Below are positions 33,178 to 41,974 of a stretch of DNA of 64,000 bases, piece by piece. This stretch comes from Armatimonadota bacterium. Lineage in GTDB: Bacteria > Armatimonadota > Fimbriimonadia > Fimbriimonadales > Fimbriimonadaceae. Position numbers and translations under genes: made by a program. The notes beneath the pieces were generated by a model. The model was not told the origin of the DNA. It saw only the letters and a list, made by a program, of their open reading frames with translations, and did no database searches. Every line of letters begins with the position of its first letter. The first letter of the stretch is position 1. The stretch spans positions 124,001 through 188,000 of the forward strand of contig JADFMN010000006.1 in assembly GCA_022563855.1 (NCBI GenBank). The letters run 5' to 3'.

Positions 33178-33429
33178 TTACTCCTTGGCCGCGGCGTCGA
33201 TCGCGTTCAGAATACGGGTCGCCAGGCCATCAGGAAGATTCGTTGCCTGAACTTTTTCCCGCACGCACTTCAGCATTTTTTCTTCGAAGCTGTAGGCGCC
33301 CGCGCACCCTTCGCACGTCGCGAGGTGCGCCTCTAGCGACACAATGTCCTCTGGCGAGAGCTCTCGGTCCAAGTAATTTTGAAGACGTTCAAACGCTTCG
33401 TCGCACGAGCATGGAATCGGATCAGACAT
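33178..33429 (-). CDS. Zinc-finger anti-sigma factor (RsrA-like)
   Basis: 83 residues with the zf-HC2/ZAS signature HLATCEGCAGAYSFEEK (HxxxCxxC) and a leading Cys-rich segment (CSCDEAFERLQNYLD). Such proteins bind and hold an ECF sigma factor, often releasing it on thiol oxidation. Its start overlaps the sigma gene's end by 8 bp, the normal cognate pair arrangement. Confidence 0.92.
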   Translation of the reverse strand: MSDPIPCSCDEAFERLQNYLDRELSPEDIVSLEAHLATCEGCAGAYSFEEKMLKCVREKVQATNLPDGLATRILNAIDAAAKE

Positions 33430-33994
33430 GACTTTCCTCCTGTTGGGCTTTCTTTACGATTCCCCTGGACTCAGCTAAGGTCCACAGCTTTTTCTGCAGC
33501 ACCTTGCGGCCGCGGTGCAAGCGAGACCTGACGGTGCCGACTGGTATTTCTGCGACGTTCGCGATCTCTTCGTAACTAAAGTCATTCATGAAATATAGCA
33601 GGCAAACAACTCTGAACTCTTGCGGTAGTTCGTCGATGGCGATCTGCACTTCTTCTTGGTCGAGAGCGTCGATTACCTGACTGGCGCTGTCGCGCACGCC
33701 GGCCTTTTCAGACTCAGTGTAAAGGAACAGGTCCTCTGCATCATCGAGAGAGACCGTTTGGCCGCGCCTTGCCTCCTTCTCCTTCGCCTTGTAGAACTTG
33801 TTCGTGAGGATCCTCATGAACCACGCCTTGAAGTTCGTGCCCTCCGTGAAGGTGTGGATGCTCTTGAAGGCCTGGATGGACGCGTCCTGAACGAGGTCCA
33901 TAGCGTCGTCCTGGTTGTGCGTCAGCTTGACCGCATAACCGTATCCGACCTGCAGCACAGGTTGGAGCAATCGCTCGAAAGCGTCTCGTTCCAT
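33422..33994 (-). CDS. ECF RNA polymerase sigma factor (SigR/RpoE type)
   Basis: About 190 residues. Region 2 with DDAMDLVQDASIQAFKSIHT and NFKAWFMRILTNKFY, then region 4 with LPQEFRVVCLLYFMNDFSYE and a helix-turn-helix ending IPVGTVRSRLHRGR. It directs RNA polymerase to a small stress or redox regulon and is held by the anti-sigma factor at 33178. ATG 33994 (MERDAF) is chosen; ATG 34015 adds seven residues, and neither has a clear ribosome site. The upstream gap is made of repeats. Confidence 0.93.
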   Translation of the reverse strand: MERDAFERLLQPVLQVGYGYAVKLTHNQDDAMDLVQDASIQAFKSIHTFTEGTNFKAWFMRILTNKFYKAKEKEARRGQTVSLDDAEDLFLYTESEKAGVRDSASQVIDALDQEEVQIAIDELPQEFRVVCLLYFMNDFSYEEIANVAEIPVGTVRSRLHRGRKVLQKKLWTLAESRGIVKKAQQEESHV

Positions 33995-34015
33995 GTTATG
34001 GCGATAGTTTAGCAT

Positions 34016-34297
34016 TTGGGGGGAGGTTCGGGAGTTCGGGTTGGTTCGGGTTGGTTCGTGTGACTCGGGACTCGGGACTTGGGACTCGGGACTTCTGAAG
34101 CGCCGATGGAGGGTCGTCCTCCTGGGCGACCTTAGCTTTCGCGCGCTGCGAACTTCGGACTAAGAGTCCGAAGGCCGGGATGCGGACTAAGAGTCCGCGC
34201 TCCAACGGGACACGGACAAACCCTTCGGGCCTGACCGTGGCACACGGCTCGTGCACCTCGCACCTCGCACCTCGCACCTCGTACCTCGTACCCTCCC
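34016..34297. repeat. 282-bp intergenic block of short repeats and hairpins
   Basis: No gene seen. In order: two TTCGGGTTGG decamers (34035-34056), several ACTCGGGACT words (34063-34102), a GGAGGGTCGTCCTCC palindrome, two perfect hairpins CTTCGGACT-aag-AGTCCGAAG (34153-34173) and GCGGACT-aag-AGTCCGC (34181-34197), then CACCTCG heptamers repeated about six times (34254-34294). It lies between the sigma gene's 5' side and the 3' end of the permease gene, both on minus, so it must also hold the sigma promoter, which I cannot place. Confidence 0.8.
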
Positions 34298-35518
34298 TCA
34301 TCCCTTCAGCCCAGTCGCAGCGATGCCCTGGATGAACAGCCTCTGTGTGAAGAAGAACAGGATGATGACCGGTGCAAGGACGACTGTCGACGCCGCCATG
34401 AGCAGGTGCCACTGCGCGCCCTGCTGGCTCCGATAGAAGTTCAGGCCGAGCGAGAGGGTGAAGTGCTCCTGGCTATGGAGGTAAATGAGCGGGCCGAGGA
34501 AGTCGTTCCACGACGACATGAACGCGAAGAGCGCAACGACCGCCAGCGCGGGCTTGGTGAGCGGCAGGATGACCTTGTAGTAGATGCCCCACTCGCTGCA
34601 GCCGTCGATCTTCGCGGCCTCGCTCAGCTCGTTCGGGATCGACTTGTAGAACTGCCTCAGAAGGAAGATGCTGAAAGCGCTGCCGAACCACGCCGGCACC
34701 CAGAGCGGACGAAACGTACCGGCCCAGTCGAGCTTCACGAACAGGGTGAACAGCGGCACCATGATGACGGGGAAGGGGATCATCATGGTCGCGAGGGTGA
34801 GAGCGAAGACAAGGTCGCGCCCCGGCCAGCGGAGCCGCGCGAACGAATAGGCGACGATCGAATTGGAGATCACCACGCCGCCCACGAAAAGGATGCAGAA
34901 CAGAATCGTGTTGCGCGCGTAAACCAGGAACGGTTTGTAACCGAGCGTCTGTTCGCCGTATGAAATCGCGTCGGCGAAGTTGTGGAACTGGAACGAGACC
35001 TCTTTGACCGGTCGTAAGTCGTCTTTCGGAACTTCGAGCACCGTCCCGGCCTCGGAGGACGAGCCGATGATCTCGAACTGTGCGATACCGTCCTCTTCCG
35101 ACCTGATGAAGCCGGGAAAGACGAGGCCGTCGCGGTCGAATTCATAGACGCCAGTGGTCTTCGGCACCTCTTTCAGGGCCGACCGGTCCATCGGGATCTT
35201 CTTGTAGAGCTGTCCCGGCGGGTCTGTGATGAGGAACTCGACTTGGCCGTTCTCGATCTCCCCGCTGATCTTGCCGCGCACGGTCTGGCCGAGGTGCTCG
35301 GTCTCGTAGATCGGATCGTCCGCATCGAAGTACTCGTGCTTGACCTGCTCCATCGGGATGAAGTTGATCTCGCTGGTCGCGGTCTCTTCAATGACCTTGA
35401 GCGAGGTCGAAAGCATCCAGACGAGCGGGATGATGAATACGCAGCCCAGGGCGATCAGCACTGCGTGGATGACCGCGTGCTGGGCTAGGCTGCTCCTGCT
35501 CTTCCTCCTCTTCGCCAT
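34298..35518 (-). CDS. Sugar ABC transporter permease, MalG-type, with long periplasmic insertion
   Basis: 406 residues against the usual 270-300. TM1 is at about 14-36. The second helix begins only near residue 195 (PFLVYARNTILFCILF), so about 160 residues separate them, roughly 90-100 more than normal. This insert is hydrophilic and beta-rich (ENGQVEFLITDPPGQL, FPGFIRSEEDGIAQF) and must face the periplasm. The EAA loop EAAKIDGCSEWGIYYKVIL is canonical. It pairs with the MalF-type permease 4 bp upstream; a shared cytoplasmic ATPase encoded elsewhere must drive both. Confidence 0.9.
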   Translation of the reverse strand: MAKRRKSRSSLAQHAVIHAVLIALGCVFIIPLVWMLSTSLKVIEETATSEINFIPMEQVKHEYFDADDPIYETEHLGQTVRGKISGEIENGQVEFLITDPPGQLYKKIPMDRSALKEVPKTTGVYEFDRDGLVFPGFIRSEEDGIAQFEIIGSSSEAGTVLEVPKDDLRPVKEVSFQFHNFADAISYGEQTLGYKPFLVYARNTILFCILFVGGVVISNSIVAYSFARLRWPGRDLVFALTLATMMIPFPVIMVPLFTLFVKLDWAGTFRPLWVPAWFGSAFSIFLLRQFYKSIPNELSEAAKIDGCSEWGIYYKVILPLTKPALAVVALFAFMSSWNDFLGPLIYLHSQEHFTLSLGLNFYRSQQGAQWHLLMAASTVVLAPVIILFFFTQRLFIQGIAATGLKG

Positions 35519-35522
35519 CTGA

Positions 35523-36404
35523 TTACCCGCCCTCGTAGTGAACGAACTTATCGCTCTTTTTGAGCGCGAAGACAGTCAGGAAGAAGATGATGATGAACAT
35601 GATCCACGCCATCGCGCTCGCGTACCCCATCTTGTTGTAGTTGAACGCGTTGTCGTAGATGTACATCGAGTAGAAGTAGATCGACCGGGCGGGTGCCCCG
35701 GTCGAGGACATGACGAACGGCTGTGTGAAGATCTGCAGCGAGCCGATGATGCTCATGATCACGTTGAACAGGATCACGGGCGAGATCAGCGGGATCGTGA
35801 CGTGCAACGTCTTCTTCCACGCGGTCGCGCCGTCGATGTCGGCAGCTTCGTAGAGCGACAGCGGAACCTCCTGCAGGCCGGCAAGGTAGATGATCATCGC
35901 GTTGCCGACTCCCCAGAGTGACATGAACACGATCGCGGGCTTCGACCAGCGAACGTCGCCGAGCCAGTTCGGCCCGTCGATGCCGACCCAGCCGAGCATG
36001 GTGTTGATCAGCCCGTACTCGCCATTGAACAGCCACAGCCACAGGATGACCAACGACACGACCGGCACGAGCGAGGGGACGAAGAAAACCGTGCGGTAGA
36101 TCGACATGAACCGCACCTTGGTGTTCAAGAGCAGCGCAAGCCCCAGCGCGACGACCGTGGCAAGCGGAATGAACAGTGCGGCGAAGAAGAGCGTGTTGAA
36201 AAGCGACTTCCAGAACACCTCGTCGGCGATCAGCGTCGAGTAGTTCTCGAGCCCGACCCAGATCGGCGGGTTGAGGACGGAGTAGGAGGTGAAGCTGAAG
36301 TAGATCGACGCGAAGATCGGATAGGCGAGGAACATGCCGAAGCCGATGAACCAGGGGATCGCGAAGACGTAGCCCGCCCTCGCCTCTTTGGTCCGGATGC
36401 TCAC
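35523..36404 (-). CDS. Sugar ABC transporter permease, MalF-type
   Basis: 293 residues with six helices and the EAA loop EAADIDGATAWKKTLHVTI. The start is GTG 36404, with AGGAGG eight bases before it and a 4-bp overlap (GTGA) with the binding-protein gene; the longer frame into that gene is spurious. Middle gene of the order binding protein - MalF - MalG. Takes up an oligosaccharide or sugar released by the nearby glycosidases (inference). Confidence 0.93.
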   Translation of the reverse strand: MSIRTKEARAGYVFAIPWFIGFGMFLAYPIFASIYFSFTSYSVLNPPIWVGLENYSTLIADEVFWKSLFNTLFFAALFIPLATVVALGLALLLNTKVRFMSIYRTVFFVPSLVPVVSLVILWLWLFNGEYGLINTMLGWVGIDGPNWLGDVRWSKPAIVFMSLWGVGNAMIIYLAGLQEVPLSLYEAADIDGATAWKKTLHVTIPLISPVILFNVIMSIIGSLQIFTQPFVMSSTGAPARSIYFYSMYIYDNAFNYNKMGYASAMAWIMFIIIFFLTVFALKKSDKFVHYEGG

Positions 36405-37738
36405 CGTTGCGCCTCCTGCCTGATCTTGCTCTCGCGCAGGTACTTGTCGAGCATGGGCTGGACGCGCCTTTTGACCATGTCCATCGCCTCTTGTGGGTCC
36501 ATGCCGTTGATGTAGACCTCGTCGAAGGCGTTTTGCAGTTCTGCCTGATACTCGGGCCAGATCGCGATCTTGGGCACGGAGACCGCGTTCGGGCCTTTCG
36601 CAAGCTCCGTGAAGAGCCGGATGCGCGGGTTGGGGTGCTGCTCGTAGAACTCGTCGCTGGCTTCGGCGAGCGGCGAGTGCTTGCGCTGGCCGAGGCAGAG
36701 CAGCTCCATGGCGTGCTGCGACTGCACGAACTTGATGAACTCGAACGCTTCCTTCGGGTGCTTTGCTCCGCGCGGGATGACGAGGATGTCGGCCTCTGCG
36801 ATCGTCATATTTGCAAGGTCTGGGCGGCTCGCGGGGTGGGGGAACGGCACCGCGTCCCACTCCAGGTCGGGGTTGTACGTGTTGATGAAGTTCGACATCC
36901 AAACGCCCTGCAGGACCATGGCGACCTTCTCGTCCATGAAGGCGTTCTGTGGAGAGGCGAACTTGCCGAACCCGCTCTTGAAGTTCTGCAGGTTGCCAGT
37001 CCCGAACTGTTGCGCGTGCTTCTGCACCCAACGCATCGCTTCGACGATCTCGGGCTCGTTGCAGGTGATCTGCGACTCGCCGTCCCAGAGCCGACCGCCG
37101 AAGAAGTAGCCCCACGCCCAGTTCCACCAGCCCGGTTCGGCGTGCATGAACCCGCTCTGAACGATCGAGCCGTTCTTGCCGATCTTAGTCAGTGCCTTGG
37201 AGTACTCGTCCAGCTCTTCGATCGTCTTCGGCGGCGAGTCGGCGTCGAGCCCAGCGTTGCGGAACATCGCCTTGTTGTAGTGCAGCGCGTTCGTCGCAGG
37301 CGTGGTCGGAAGAGCGTAGATCTTGCCCTGGAAGACGCCGAGGTCCCAGTAGACGGCGATGTAGTCGTCGCGGGTGATGCCGGCATCTTTGCAGAACTCG
37401 TCGAGCGGAATGATCGCGTTGTCGTGGACGTACTGCGCGACGTTGAAGCTGTAGAGCCCCGCGACGTCGGGCGGGACCCCCGCCGAGGTCGCCAGCATGG
37501 TCTTCTGGTGGATGCTCGAGACAGGGAGCAGATCGACGTAGATATCGTCCTGCGAGTCGTTGAACTCGTCTACGACCCGCTTGATCGCCTCGAACTCGAT
37601 GTCGGACCACTTCTCCCAATAGCTGATCCGGACCCTGTCTTTGATCTCCTTCGGCCTGACGATTACTTCGCTTGCCCAGAAAGCGCCGATCACGAGAACG
37701 ACGGCCAACAGAGGAACGAGCTTGCCAAGGGTTTTCAT
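36401..37738 (-). CDS. Sugar ABC transporter substrate-binding protein (family 1)
   Basis: 445 residues from ATG 37738. N-terminal hydrophobic signal/anchor (MKTLGKLVPLLAVVLVIGAF) without a lipobox Cys, so it may stay membrane-tethered. The body has the solute-binding family 1 pattern: YWEKWSDIEFEAIKRVVDEF, VPPDVAGLYSFNVAQ, ALHYNKAMFRNAGLD, and many aromatic residues (EPGWWNWAWGYFFGG) for sugar stacking. First gene of the importer operon. No ATPase gene follows, as is usual when an MsmK/MsmX-type ATPase is shared. Confidence 0.9.
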   Translation of the reverse strand: MKTLGKLVPLLAVVLVIGAFWASEVIVRPKEIKDRVRISYWEKWSDIEFEAIKRVVDEFNDSQDDIYVDLLPVSSIHQKTMLATSAGVPPDVAGLYSFNVAQYVHDNAIIPLDEFCKDAGITRDDYIAVYWDLGVFQGKIYALPTTPATNALHYNKAMFRNAGLDADSPPKTIEELDEYSKALTKIGKNGSIVQSGFMHAEPGWWNWAWGYFFGGRLWDGESQITCNEPEIVEAMRWVQKHAQQFGTGNLQNFKSGFGKFASPQNAFMDEKVAMVLQGVWMSNFINTYNPDLEWDAVPFPHPASRPDLANMTIAEADILVIPRGAKHPKEAFEFIKFVQSQHAMELLCLGQRKHSPLAEASDEFYEQHPNPRIRLFTELAKGPNAVSVPKIAIWPEYQAELQNAFDEVYINGMDPQEAMDMVKRRVQPMLDKYLRESKIRQEAQR

Positions 37739-37864
37739 GCCGGTCGTTAGCTCAAGTCCATGATACCGGCTTGTTTCGGCGCCTTCGTTCGCGCGGGCCA
37801 ATCTATTCGGGAACAAATCTGCGGAAATCGGAATTGTGAGATTGGGCGCTCCAGGAGTCCACCG

Positions 37865-38896
37865 ATGAGACCATTTACTCTATCAATTTTGGTTGTCCTC
37901 GCGTTCGTTATGGGATGCGATGAAGAAGCTTCGTTAGCTAAGGCACAAGACGCAAGCTCAGGATTCAACAAGGCGAACATTCCGTCAGACCTAGCGATCT
38001 TGCTGCCGCGCGATGGGATCATGGCGATCTGGGATCCGGTGTTCGTCTCGGCCGCCGAAGCGAATATGCCGGACGATGCCGAGGTGATCGGCTTCGTGCA
38101 CAACGGCGAGGCGCACGCTTACTCGATCAATCTGCTGGACGGGCACGAGATCGTGAACGACGTCGTCGGCGGCGAACGGATCGCTGCAACGTGGTGACCC
38201 CTGTGCTCCTCGGCTATCGTGTATAGCCGCATGCTGGACGGAAAGGAATTGACGATCGGTGTCAGCGGGATGCTGTGGAAGAACTCGCTCGTCATGTACG
38301 ATCGCGAGACGGAGACGCTTTGGTCGCACTTCACCGGCGAAGGGTTGGCCGGTCCGAACAAGGGCAAGACGCTCAAGATGCTACGATCGACGCCCCGCGT
38401 GAAGTGGCCGGATTGGGTAGCAGCGTATCCGGACACTAAGGTGCTGAAAGTCGACGGCATGACGCACAAGGTTGTCAGTCGATATGCCGGGTACTTCCGC
38501 GATCCCTCGAAATTTGGAATGAGGCCTGTAGAGAACAGTGATAAGCGGCTACGGGGCAAAGCTTTGGTGCTGGGGGTTCTCGTCGGCGACACCAGAACCG
38601 CCATCTCGTTCGACTTGCTAGCTGAAGAAGTCATCGTCGAGGCGAATGTCGGCGGCCAGAGAATTGCGGTTTACATGGACTCCGAGACCAGGCTGTTCGG
38701 TGCGGTCGAACTGCCGGACGGCGTCGAAGTCACAGACGTCAGCGAAAGGAGAATCACGACGTCCGACGGCAAGTCGTACTCTGCCGCAGACGGCCAGGGC
38801 GACGGCGACAGTCTGACGATGCTGCCCGCTATCCGCACGTTCTGGTTTGCGTGGTCGGACCACCACCCGGAAACGGAACTGATCACCGGCCGTTGA
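37865..38896 (+). CDS. DUF3179 lipoprotein with in-frame UGA at conserved CPLC: candidate selenoprotein
   Basis: One 344-codon frame, interrupted only by TGA at 38195-38197. Both sides are in the same frame and together match DUF3179: VIGFVHNGEAHAYSINLLDG, then HEIVNDVVGG, ERIAATW, [TGA], PLCSSAIVY, DGKELTIGVSGMLW, LVMYDRETETLWSHFTGE. The family has WCPLC at this spot, so the UGA replaces its first Cys and gives U-P-L-C, a UxxC redox-type motif (U111, C114). A hairpin fitting bacterial SECIS rules follows. N-terminus is a lipoprotein signal (MRPFTLSILVVLAFVMGC) after AGGAG. If UGA is read as stop, a 110-residue fragment without the domain's core results. A recent nonsense mutation (TGC to TGA) or sequence error is the main alternative; no selenium genes are in the window. 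Confidence 0.72.
38195..38229 (+). promoter_or_regulatory. Candidate bacterial SECIS element after UGA
   Basis: After the in-frame UGA (38195-38197) a 7-bp perfect stem CGGCTAT (38211-38217) / ATAGCCG (38223-38229) closes a 5-nt loop CGTGT. The loop begins 20 nt after the UGA and has G at its second position. This meets the published bacterial SECIS description as I recall it (stem 4-16 bp, loop 3-14 nt with G in the first two positions, 16-37 nt from UGA). A looser lower pairing GTG (38203-38205) with CAT (38230-38232) is possible. SelB binding is untested. Confidence 0.55.
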
Positions 38897-39869
38897 CGAC
38901 GCAGCGAAAGCCGGTGTGACTGTGGCTGTCAGTCGGCGGAGTCTTCATGCGCGTCGACGGGAGAAATCCGCTGCAGTACGTCTCATGGCACAGGAACGAA
39001 CCGCCACGGATCGTTTTCTTCGGGCTGTTCGGTTCGTCGGGGTCTAGGCTGCTGTTCGGGCCTGTTGGGTTGTCCTTTGGACTGTTCGAGTAGTAGTCGT
39101 AGCGGTACCAGTCGGTGCACCACTCCCAGACGTTGCCAGCCATGTCGTAAAGCCCGAGTGAGTTGGGTGGAAACGATCCGACCGGCGCGGTCGCTTCGTA
39201 GCCGTCTTTGACGGTGTTGTTGTAAGGGAACTCGCCGTGAAAGATGTTCGCCTGCGGGAGTTTCGGGTCGCCGGTCAGTCCCTTCTTCGCGGCGTACTCC
39301 CACTGCGCCTCGGTCGGCAGCGATTTTCCCGCCCATTCCGCGTACGCCATCGCGTCCTCCCAGCTGACGTGCACGACAGGGTGGTCCATGCGGCCCTCGA
39401 TGTCGCTGCCTGGGCCTTCAGGGTGTCGCCAGTTCGTGCCGTCTCTGATCTCCCACCAGGCTGAGACGTTGCGCAGATCGACTGGCCCTTCGCTCCCAGT
39501 GAACACGATCGAGTTCTTGAAGTCGTCCGCGCTGGTCTTGTAATCTGTTTCCTCGACGAACTTTGCGAACTGCTCGTTTGTGACTTCGTGCGTCTCCATC
39601 CAGAACCCGTTGACGGTGACTTCATGCACCGGTCGTTCGTCTGGCTTGTTGTCGTTCGATCCCATTTGGAATGCGCCGCCTTCGACGTAGACCATGTTGG
39701 AGAGGTCTGGGTCGATCGGATTTGTTCGGATTTGTTCGGTTTTGTTCGGACTTGTGTCTTCGGGTTTGCCGGCAGTGTCAGTTCCTTCTCCACAGCTTGA
39801 AACTAAGATGAGCCCCAAAAGCAAAACCGGACTAACCCGGACCACCCCGGACAAAACCGAACGTGGCAT
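38883..39869 (-). CDS. Formylglycine-generating-enzyme-like (SUMF1) lipoprotein
   Basis: 328 residues from ATG 39869 (TGATG overlap with the fucosidase stop). Lipoprotein signal ending LVSSC, a linker, then the FGE-sulfatase domain: GGAFQMGSND, PVHEVTVNGFWMETHEVTNE, SWEDAMAYAEWAG, GNVWEWCTDWY. The segment GGSFLCHETYCSGF keeps both cysteines of the copper/active site of genuine FGEs, which convert a sulfatase Cys to formylglycine. No sulfatase is in the window. Odd: linker residues (NKTEQIRTNP) are encoded by three tandem 10-bp repeat units (39721-39750) of a family otherwise intergenic. Convergent with DUF3179, 14-bp overlap. Confidence 0.87.
   Translation of the reverse strand: MPRSVLSGVVRVSPVLLLGLILVSSCGEGTDTAGKPEDTSPNKTEQIRTNPIDPDLSNMVYVEGGAFQMGSNDNKPDERPVHEVTVNGFWMETHEVTNEQFAKFVEETDYKTSADDFKNSIVFTGSEGPVDLRNVSAWWEIRDGTNWRHPEGPGSDIEGRMDHPVVHVSWEDAMAYAEWAGKSLPTEAQWEYAAKKGLTGDPKLPQANIFHGEFPYNNTVKDGYEATAPVGSFPPNSLGLYDMAGNVWEWCTDWYRYDYYSNSPKDNPTGPNSSLDPDEPNSPKKTIRGGSFLCHETYCSGFLPSTRMKTPPTDSHSHTGFRCVVNGR
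39721..39750. repeat. Three in-frame 10-bp repeat units inside the FGE-like gene
   Basis: TTTGTTCGGA, TTTGTTCGGT, TTTGTTCGGA in tandem: the reverse complement of the CCGAACAAA decamers that form the array at 57368-57436. They lie in the linker between the lipobox and the catalytic domain, a tolerant site. Ten is not a multiple of three, so three units are needed to keep the frame, and exactly three are present. Confidence 0.85.
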
Positions 39870-41974
39870 CAATGCTTAAACTCCTCTGCCCTCATCTCGT
39901 GCTTCTTAATCTCCGGCCCGGTCATCTCTAGCTTCAGGCCTAGCGCGCCGGTGGCATTGAAGTATTCGACCCGGATCATATGGAAGCCTTTCGCGAGCGG
40001 CGCCATGCCTTGCTTCGTGACCAGTCCGTGCAGGCCGTCGTTGTCTACGATCAGTTTGTCGTCGATGTAGAGTCGGCTGCCGTCGTCGCTGGTGAGGCTG
40101 AAGGTGTAGATGCCGTCCTTCGGCGCGGTGATGACGCCTTGGAACTTGAAGCCGAAGTGCTCGTCTCTCTTCCTTAGGCGGAGGTCGAGGCCCATCATGC
40201 TAACGCCGGTCTCGGTCTCTTTCGCATCCTTCAACTGGTCGAGCGTCTGCCAGCCCTGTTCGATGTAGAAGTAGCGCAGACCTGGGTCGGGCGCTCTTAT
40301 GAACACGATCGCTGGCATCAATTCCTGTTTGTCGTATCGCGTGAACTTCTGCTCGATCGGTTTGAACGAGCGCCGACCTTCATAGAACGCTGCGGCTTTG
40401 AGCGTCACAGTCTTGTCGATCTTGATCGGGCCTTCGTAGAGCGGTGAGTACTCCTGCGGACTCGCACCATCGAGTGTGTAACGAATTTCGGCGAAAGGAT
40501 TGTCGGACTTCAGTTCGATCGTTTGCTCACCCATGAACGACGGCGCGCCGCTTGCTATCTCGACCGAGGGCACGCCGAGATACGCTTCGATACTCGCTAC
40601 CCTTATTGGAACGCCGCCAGGGCCGAATACTTCGACCATGAGAGACTCGCCATCTTTGACTTCAAGCGGAGGAAATTGGACAATGCGTCGATAGCCGACA
40701 GTAGTTCCTCTCGCTAAGGTCAGGTAGGGCGAATCTTGATTTCTGCTGAACAGCCACACGCTGAAATGCGTGATTCGTTGACTGTTGATAAGGTTTTCTT
40801 GAATTACGACGTGATCGACAAGCGTTGGCTTTGTCCAGCTCAAGGCGTAGACCAAGCCGATTTTGGGACGGGGAACCTCATAGTACGTGGTCGGATCGTG
40901 ATCGCTTAAGACTTGAACCATGCGCTCACTTCCGGCAGGGCGGTTTTCGAAATCTAATTGCATTTTCTGAGACAGATCTTCTTCGAATGTCTCCTCCCGC
41001 CAGCGCCTGAACTCCATCAGCGCATGGACGTCGTTCTTGTGGATCAACCCGCGTGAGTCTGGCGGGACGTTGAGCAACAGGTTCCCTCCGTGGCCGATTG
41101 AGCGGTAGTAAATCTCGCTGAGTTGCTCAATCGACTTGACGCGGTCGTTCTCTGACTCGCGCCAGAACCAGCCGGGGCGGATCGAGACGTCGCACTCGCC
41201 GGGGGAGTACTTGTCGCCGTTCGGGTCGCCTTCGAAAAGGAAACTGTAGATCGACTGGTCGCCCGGATAGTGACCAGAGGGCAGGAAGTTCCAATTGGTT
41301 TCGCCGACGAAACCGCTCTCGTTTCCGACCCACCGCACGTCACCGCCGTCGCCGAAGATCACGGCGTTCGGCGCAAACTCGCGCACGGTCGCTTCGAAGC
41401 GCGGCCAGTCGTAGATCTGTCGCTTGCCGTTCGGGCCTTCGCCGTTCGCGCCGTCGAACCACACTTCTTTCATGTCGCCGTAGTTGGTCAGCACCTCTTC
41501 GAGCATGTTGACGAAAACGTCGTTATACTCAGCCGTTCCGTAAGTCGGGTGGTTGCGGTCCCACGGCGAGAGGTACACGCCCATCCACAGCCCGTACTCC
41601 TTGCACGCCTCGCTCAAGTCTTTGAGCACGTCGCCCTTGCCGTCGCGCCACTTGCTCGCCTTCACGCTATGGTCTGTGTACTTGCTTGGCCAGAGCGCGA
41701 AGCCGTCGTGGTGTTTGGCGGTGATGATCACGCCGGTCATGCCCGCTTCTTTGAAAACCCGGCACCACTGCCGCGCGTCGAACTCGGTCGGGTTGAAGAT
41801 GTTTGGGTCTTCGGTGCCCTGCCCCCATTCGACCCCGGTGAAGGTGTTGGGGCCGAAGTGCACGAACGCGTAGTACTGCCGCTCGTGCCAGGCCATCTGG
41901 TTCGCGCTCGGCAGCGGCCCGACCGGCGCCGGCGGGTCTTGGGTGATGGACATGGCTATCAGCAGGCTGAGCAT
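39869..41974 (-). CDS. Exported GH29 alpha-L-fucosidase with chitobiase-C and PA14-like tail
   Basis: 701 residues. A short N-terminal hydrophobic stretch (MLSLLIAMSITQ) suggests export. GH29 catalytic domain about 25-330: [31 protein letters not shown], and nucleophile Asp in KEVWFDGANGEG. Next a galactose-binding-like domain (about 335-455), a chitobiase/beta-hexosaminidase C-terminal domain (about 470-545; IRYTLDGASPQEYSPLYEGP) and a PA14-like domain (about 560-690; SLTSDDGSRLYIDDKLIVDN). Hydrolyses alpha-L-fucosides outside the cytoplasm. Followed by the FGE-like gene with 1-bp overlap. The tail is shared with the proteins at 46973 and 50504. Confidence 0.92.
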   Translation of the reverse strand: MLSLLIAMSITQDPPAPVGPLPSANQMAWHERQYYAFVHFGPNTFTGVEWGQGTEDPNIFNPTEFDARQWCRVFKEAGMTGVIITAKHHDGFALWPSKYTDHSVKASKWRDGKGDVLKDLSEACKEYGLWMGVYLSPWDRNHPTYGTAEYNDVFVNMLEEVLTNYGDMKEVWFDGANGEGPNGKRQIYDWPRFEATVREFAPNAVIFGDGGDVRWVGNESGFVGETNWNFLPSGHYPGDQSIYSFLFEGDPNGDKYSPGECDVSIRPGWFWRESENDRVKSIEQLSEIYYRSIGHGGNLLLNVPPDSRGLIHKNDVHALMEFRRWREETFEEDLSQKMQLDFENRPAGSERMVQVLSDHDPTTYYEVPRPKIGLVYALSWTKPTLVDHVVIQENLINSQRITHFSVWLFSRNQDSPYLTLARGTTVGYRRIVQFPPLEVKDGESLMVEVFGPGGVPIRVASIEAYLGVPSVEIASGAPSFMGEQTIELKSDNPFAEIRYTLDGASPQEYSPLYEGPIKIDKTVTLKAAAFYEGRRSFKPIEQKFTRYDKQELMPAIVFIRAPDPGLRYFYIEQGWQTLDQLKDAKETETGVSMMGLDLRLRKRDEHFGFKFQGVITAPKDGIYTFSLTSDDGSRLYIDDKLIVDNDGLHGLVTKQGMAPLAKGFHMIRVEYFNATGALGLKLEMTGPEIKKHEMRAEEFKH

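Follow-up and report, generated by a model that had tools for sequence, protein, structure and literature searches.

We asked whether an in-frame UGA in a gene of an Armatimonadota bacterium is read as selenocysteine (Sec) or marks a broken gene. On its plus strand, the window (the whole stretch of 64,000 nucleotides analysed here) holds a single frame that runs from ATG at 37865 to TGA at 38894-38896 with one internal stop. ORF lists split this gene, the first ORF ending at 38197 and the second beginning with GTG at 38219; under the standard code, with no recoding, it appears as two fragments. The features of the locus are:

37853-37857, plus strand: Shine-Dalgarno-like AGGAG, seen directly in the sequence 7 nt upstream of the ATG
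37865-38896, plus strand: predicted gene for a DUF3179 selenoprotein of 343 residues, residue 111 being Sec; terminal TGA
38195-38197, plus strand: in-frame UGA, predicted to be read as Sec (W-U-P-L-C); TGA in 20 further homologues, Cys in 104
38211-38229, plus strand: putative bacterial SECIS hairpin, stem CGGCUAU/AUAGCCG, loop CGUGU

The two segments had been proposed to lie in one frame and to form a complete DUF3179 protein. This was borne out by a full-length match to Pfam PF11376 (DUF3179), which covered residues 49-337 of the protein and profile positions 1-292 of 292 (E 3.4e-69) and, at 233.9 bits, exceeded the cut-off of 27 bits. The only internal stop is 38195-38197, in agreement with the original prediction that the sole defect is a TGA at the first Cys of W-C-P-L-C. 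Elsewhere in the window TGA is an ordinary stop, as had also been noted: it terminates 19 of the 38 long ORFs, as well as the DUF3179 gene itself, and a changed genetic code was therefore excluded. The N-terminus of the protein, read by eye, shows a hydrophobic segment followed by VMGC-DEE with C18, which is likely an imperfect lipobox. Minus-strand neighbours at 33422-41974 of the window encode a sigma-70-family (ECF-like) factor, a sugar ABC permease and binding protein, an FGE-sulfatase-domain lipoprotein and an alpha-L-fucosidase. No window neighbour was conserved beside other DUF3179 genes in the loci compared (L003, L186 in genome G079, L187 in genome G102, L188 and L189).

Decoding of UGA as Sec depends on dedicated machinery, and selA, selB, selD and tRNA-Sec were sought in the host genome (22 contigs, 96% complete). 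All four are present: SelA (513 bits), SelB (345 bits), SelD (359 bits, with one in-frame TGA) and a tRNA-Sec (74 bits) whose anticodon, TCA (UCA), was also found by ARAGORN. The host SelD reads CAG-U-ASKLG, and a strong hairpin follows its TGA. SelD is a second case of UGA recoding in the host genome. It resembles the window DUF3179 gene in having an in-frame TGA and then a hairpin, decoded by the same machinery, but it is an unrelated protein and a well-known selenoprotein.

We then examined homologues at the same column. A survey of the phylum Armatimonadota (291 genomes) gave four DUF3179 genes with one internal TGA, the window gene included, and in all four the TGA occupies the codon of the first Cys in CxxC. 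Their motifs are W-U-PLC (window and L003), W-U-TLC (L053) and Y-U-IVC (L054). In 48 genomes reached through named loci, a second search gave more DUF3179 genes with an internal TGA; 17 of these were retrieved, hosted by Chloroflexota (including SAR202 and Dehalococcoidia), Poribacteria and Gemmatimonadota. In 16 of the 17, the TGA lies at the window's codon and there is no other stop across the aligned domain; the 17th, L177 in genome G321, has TGA at the Sec site (ISLMW-U-TLCGTG) followed by a frameshift, and is a decaying gene or an assembly error. In total, 20 further DUF3179 genes from four phyla have TGA at the window's codon, most of them with a hairpin downstream, and 104 homologues have Cys at this position. 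The window's genus has one other member, a genome 68% complete in which no DUF3179 gene was found, and the window gene therefore lacks a very close relative for comparison. In L004, near position 1684 on the plus strand of genome G050, C-S-P-L-R replaces W-C-P-L-C, and the motif is thus lost though tRNA-Sec is present.

The hairpin in the window (CGGCUAU-CGUGU-AUAGCCG, 38211-38229) is as originally described, with 7 bp, a 5-nt loop and G at loop position 2; the stem begins 13 nt and the loop 20 nt downstream of the UGA. The bacterial SECIS model allows a loop of 3-9 nt, a stem of 4-16 bp, G in the first two loop positions, a loop 16-37 nt after the UGA and an MFE of at most -7.5 kcal/mol. With an MFE of -11.3 kcal/mol, the window hairpin falls within all of these limits, as had been claimed, though the rules are permissive in this GC range. 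By itself it is weak evidence, because 58% of random sites in related loci pass a loose bacterial-SECIS filter and the local fold at the window site has a stability ordinary for its composition (z -0.58). Local folding and a generic SECIS filter were accordingly rejected as proof, since neither separates the site from background and only comparison does. No Rfam model matched at the hairpin site.

Comparison with relatives turns the window hairpin into strong evidence. A stem of at least 5 pairs above a fixed score was sought at the same place, and was found in 19 of 20 TGA genes (window included) compared with 11 of 104 Cys homologues (Fisher p 9e-14, a value that overstates independence because the rows are related to each other). 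L167, the sole TGA gene that scored too low, nevertheless forms 5 pairs that close an identical CGUGU loop. Across 11 genes in the register of the window hairpin, 90% of cells pair and 4 of 7 pairs are changed on both sides. The covariation score of these genes was 0.462, against 0.134 +/- 0.042 in shuffles, none of which reached it (0/500), and it fell to 0.03-0.07 when the partner was slid by 1-3 columns. Protein-preserving synonymous shuffles reached the observed stem with p 0.006 for the window gene and p 0.052, 0.018 and 0.018 for the other Armatimonadota genes. Taken together, comparison strongly supports the predicted Sec position, the putative SECIS hairpin and the machinery.

If the gene were decaying, a nonsense mutation would have struck the active-site Cys codon and nothing downstream would be functional. 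Read with the standard code, the frame does contain an internal stop, and few genomes of the host's own family (4 of 85) carry the gene. However, the same stop stands at the same codon in the 20 further homologues, 19 of which were fully analysed and have no other stop in the domain, and the hairpin with its compensatory changes and the complete Sec machinery in the host genome argue in the same direction. Decay thus appears very improbable and is, in practice, refuted by the recurrence of the TGA; the original prediction had likewise held that this is not a decaying gene. Still less probable is a sequencing or assembly error that made TGA from TGC or TGT. These codons are one base change apart and the TGA was judged from the assembled sequence, but independent assemblies of organisms from four phyla share it at this codon, and a hairpin lies near it in those genes. 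On the sequence evidence, the UGA at 38195-38197 is very probably decoded as Sec. The ribosome would meet it at codon 111, SelB carrying Sec-tRNA-Sec would bind the hairpin at 38211-38229, and Sec would be inserted without termination; the terminal UGA of the same gene would act as a normal stop. The product would probably be an extracytoplasmic lipoprotein, presumably lipid-anchored, in which U-P-L-C replaces C-P-L-C.

Plasmid records already carry the name 'DUF3179 domain-containing (seleno)protein'. Zhang and Gladyshev reportedly described a DUF3179 selenoprotein from a symbiont of Olavius algarvensis in 2007. DUF3179 (PF11376) is tabulated as a selenoprotein family with the motif UxxC/T in a 2022 paper (PMC9312934), which gives as its source Zhang and Gladyshev 2007, Nucleic Acids Res. 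35:4952, and likewise in a 2026 paper (PMC13188914). The earlier statement that no DUF3179 selenoprotein had been described was therefore mistaken. As for a candidate new selenoprotein, Sec decoding is strongly supported by the machinery, the homologues and the hairpin, but the claim of a new family is wrong because reviews already list it. The window gene shows the DUF3179 selenoprotein motif, a UxxC in which the in-frame UGA falls in the alignment column of the first CxxC cysteine; compared by listed domain and motif, the listed family and the window protein share the Pfam domain and UxxC. The window member is hosted by Armatimonadota, whereas PMC13188914 makes no mention of Armatimonad-. 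The Cys forms of DUF3179 (in Nitrospira, Gammaproteobacteria, Haloarchaea and others) share the domain and its H-E-I-V-N-D ... C-P-L-C core, but have a Cys codon instead of the window's TGA, and most lack the hairpin. Our additions to knowledge are modest: the distribution of the family within Armatimonadota, a Cys homologue that has retained the hairpin in a genome that yielded no tRNA-Sec, and an internally duplicated domain whose fold is tentatively a Rieske-like barrel. Well-supported Armatimonadota members are thereby added to a little-studied selenoprotein family, together with 20 TGA genes for comparison, whose hairpins covary.

We next considered what the protein may do. An AlphaFold2 model built from 57 aligned sequences had pLDDT 87 and pTM 0.84. 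The DUF3179 domain is internally duplicated, as the profile of residues 60-215 matches that of residues 222-343 with a probability of 99.8%; CPLC is missing from the second repeat. No solved structure was related to DUF3179 by sequence, Foldseek alone gave no significant match for the model, and NCBIfam held no specific DUF3179 model, with one irrelevant match below cut-off. In the VIA comparison with solved structures, ranks 1-48 were all Rieske-type barrels, with Z up to 7.5 compared with at most 4.0 for unrelated rows. By structure only, each half of the model matches the small beta-barrel of Rieske-type ferredoxins or NirD-like small subunits. In contrast, the CxH ... CxxH cluster ligands that Rieske-type proteins carry are absent from the window protein and from conserved alignment columns, and no significant similarity emerged when profiles were compared with those of 25 Rieske proteins taken from the genome of the window and its relatives. 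Because the ligands are absent, DUF3179 was not filed under Rieske proteins, and we describe the modelled barrel fold as tentatively Rieske-like. Equating CPLC with the Rieske CPxH box, at the same 17-residue spacing from His, was rejected, as neither the structural match nor the profile comparison follows that register.

Given Sec at the UGA, U/CPLC together with the conserved His94 might bind a metal ion and form no redox pair. Metal binding by Sec is known from enzymes, the fold is similar to that of Rieske barrels, and H94, E95, N98 and D99, like C111 and C114, show little or no variation in the alignment. Such a metal site is nonetheless the less likely reading: the Rieske CxH/CxxH pattern is missing, and model residue 80 pairs with Rieske ferredoxin residue 2, which by position would place CPLC well before the cluster loops. 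Furthermore, UxxC is typical of thiol-redox selenoproteins (PMC13188914). From this motif and by analogy with other selenoproteins, the UxxC of the window protein more plausibly forms a selenol/thiol redox pair, a reading that we hold with fair confidence, and extracytoplasmic redox chemistry is the best inference for its function.

Use of Sec in the DUF3179 family strongly tracks the tRNA-Sec gene. This gene was found in each of the 13 genomes that carry a TGA form of DUF3179, and in 26 of the 61 remaining genomes with DUF3179 (p 8e-5). To account for the distribution of Sec on a tree of 82 proteins, 7 changes are required, at least 6 of which are forced by well-supported branches. The window gene groups with L050 (Cys), L003 (Sec), L053 (Sec) and L049 (Cys), beside SAR202-type Sec genes. 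L049 (1684-1731, plus strand, genome G065), whose DUF3179 sequence is identical to that of L073, has a Cys codon yet keeps an 8-pair stem with a CGUGU loop, in a genome (89% complete) that yielded no tRNA-Sec. Most simply, Sec would have been replaced by Cys while the SECIS hairpin stayed in place, a direction that the tree does not prove, and the hairpin is possibly a fossil SECIS. Nor was tRNA-Sec found in the genome of L050 (G155, only 77% complete). A broader picture joins these points: DUF3179 would consist of two tandem copies of a Rieske-like beta-barrel without a cluster, the active selenol or thiol being placed at a hairpin turn in the first copy. The Sec form would be old in Armatimonadota and Chloroflexota and lost several times, and one genome would have kept the SECIS hairpin next to a Cys codon after losing the machinery for Sec. 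We consider this combination possible, though short of probable.

Two further observations were made at these loci. Genome G155 carries two adjoining DUF3179 genes (L191:2924-4852, minus strand), of which the one scored at the site, L050, has Cys. In genome G048, a thioredoxin/AhpC-TSA-like protein with W-UGA-G-P-C (L003:789-1284, minus strand) is encoded divergently from the DUF3179 selenoprotein gene, and is a probable second selenoprotein.
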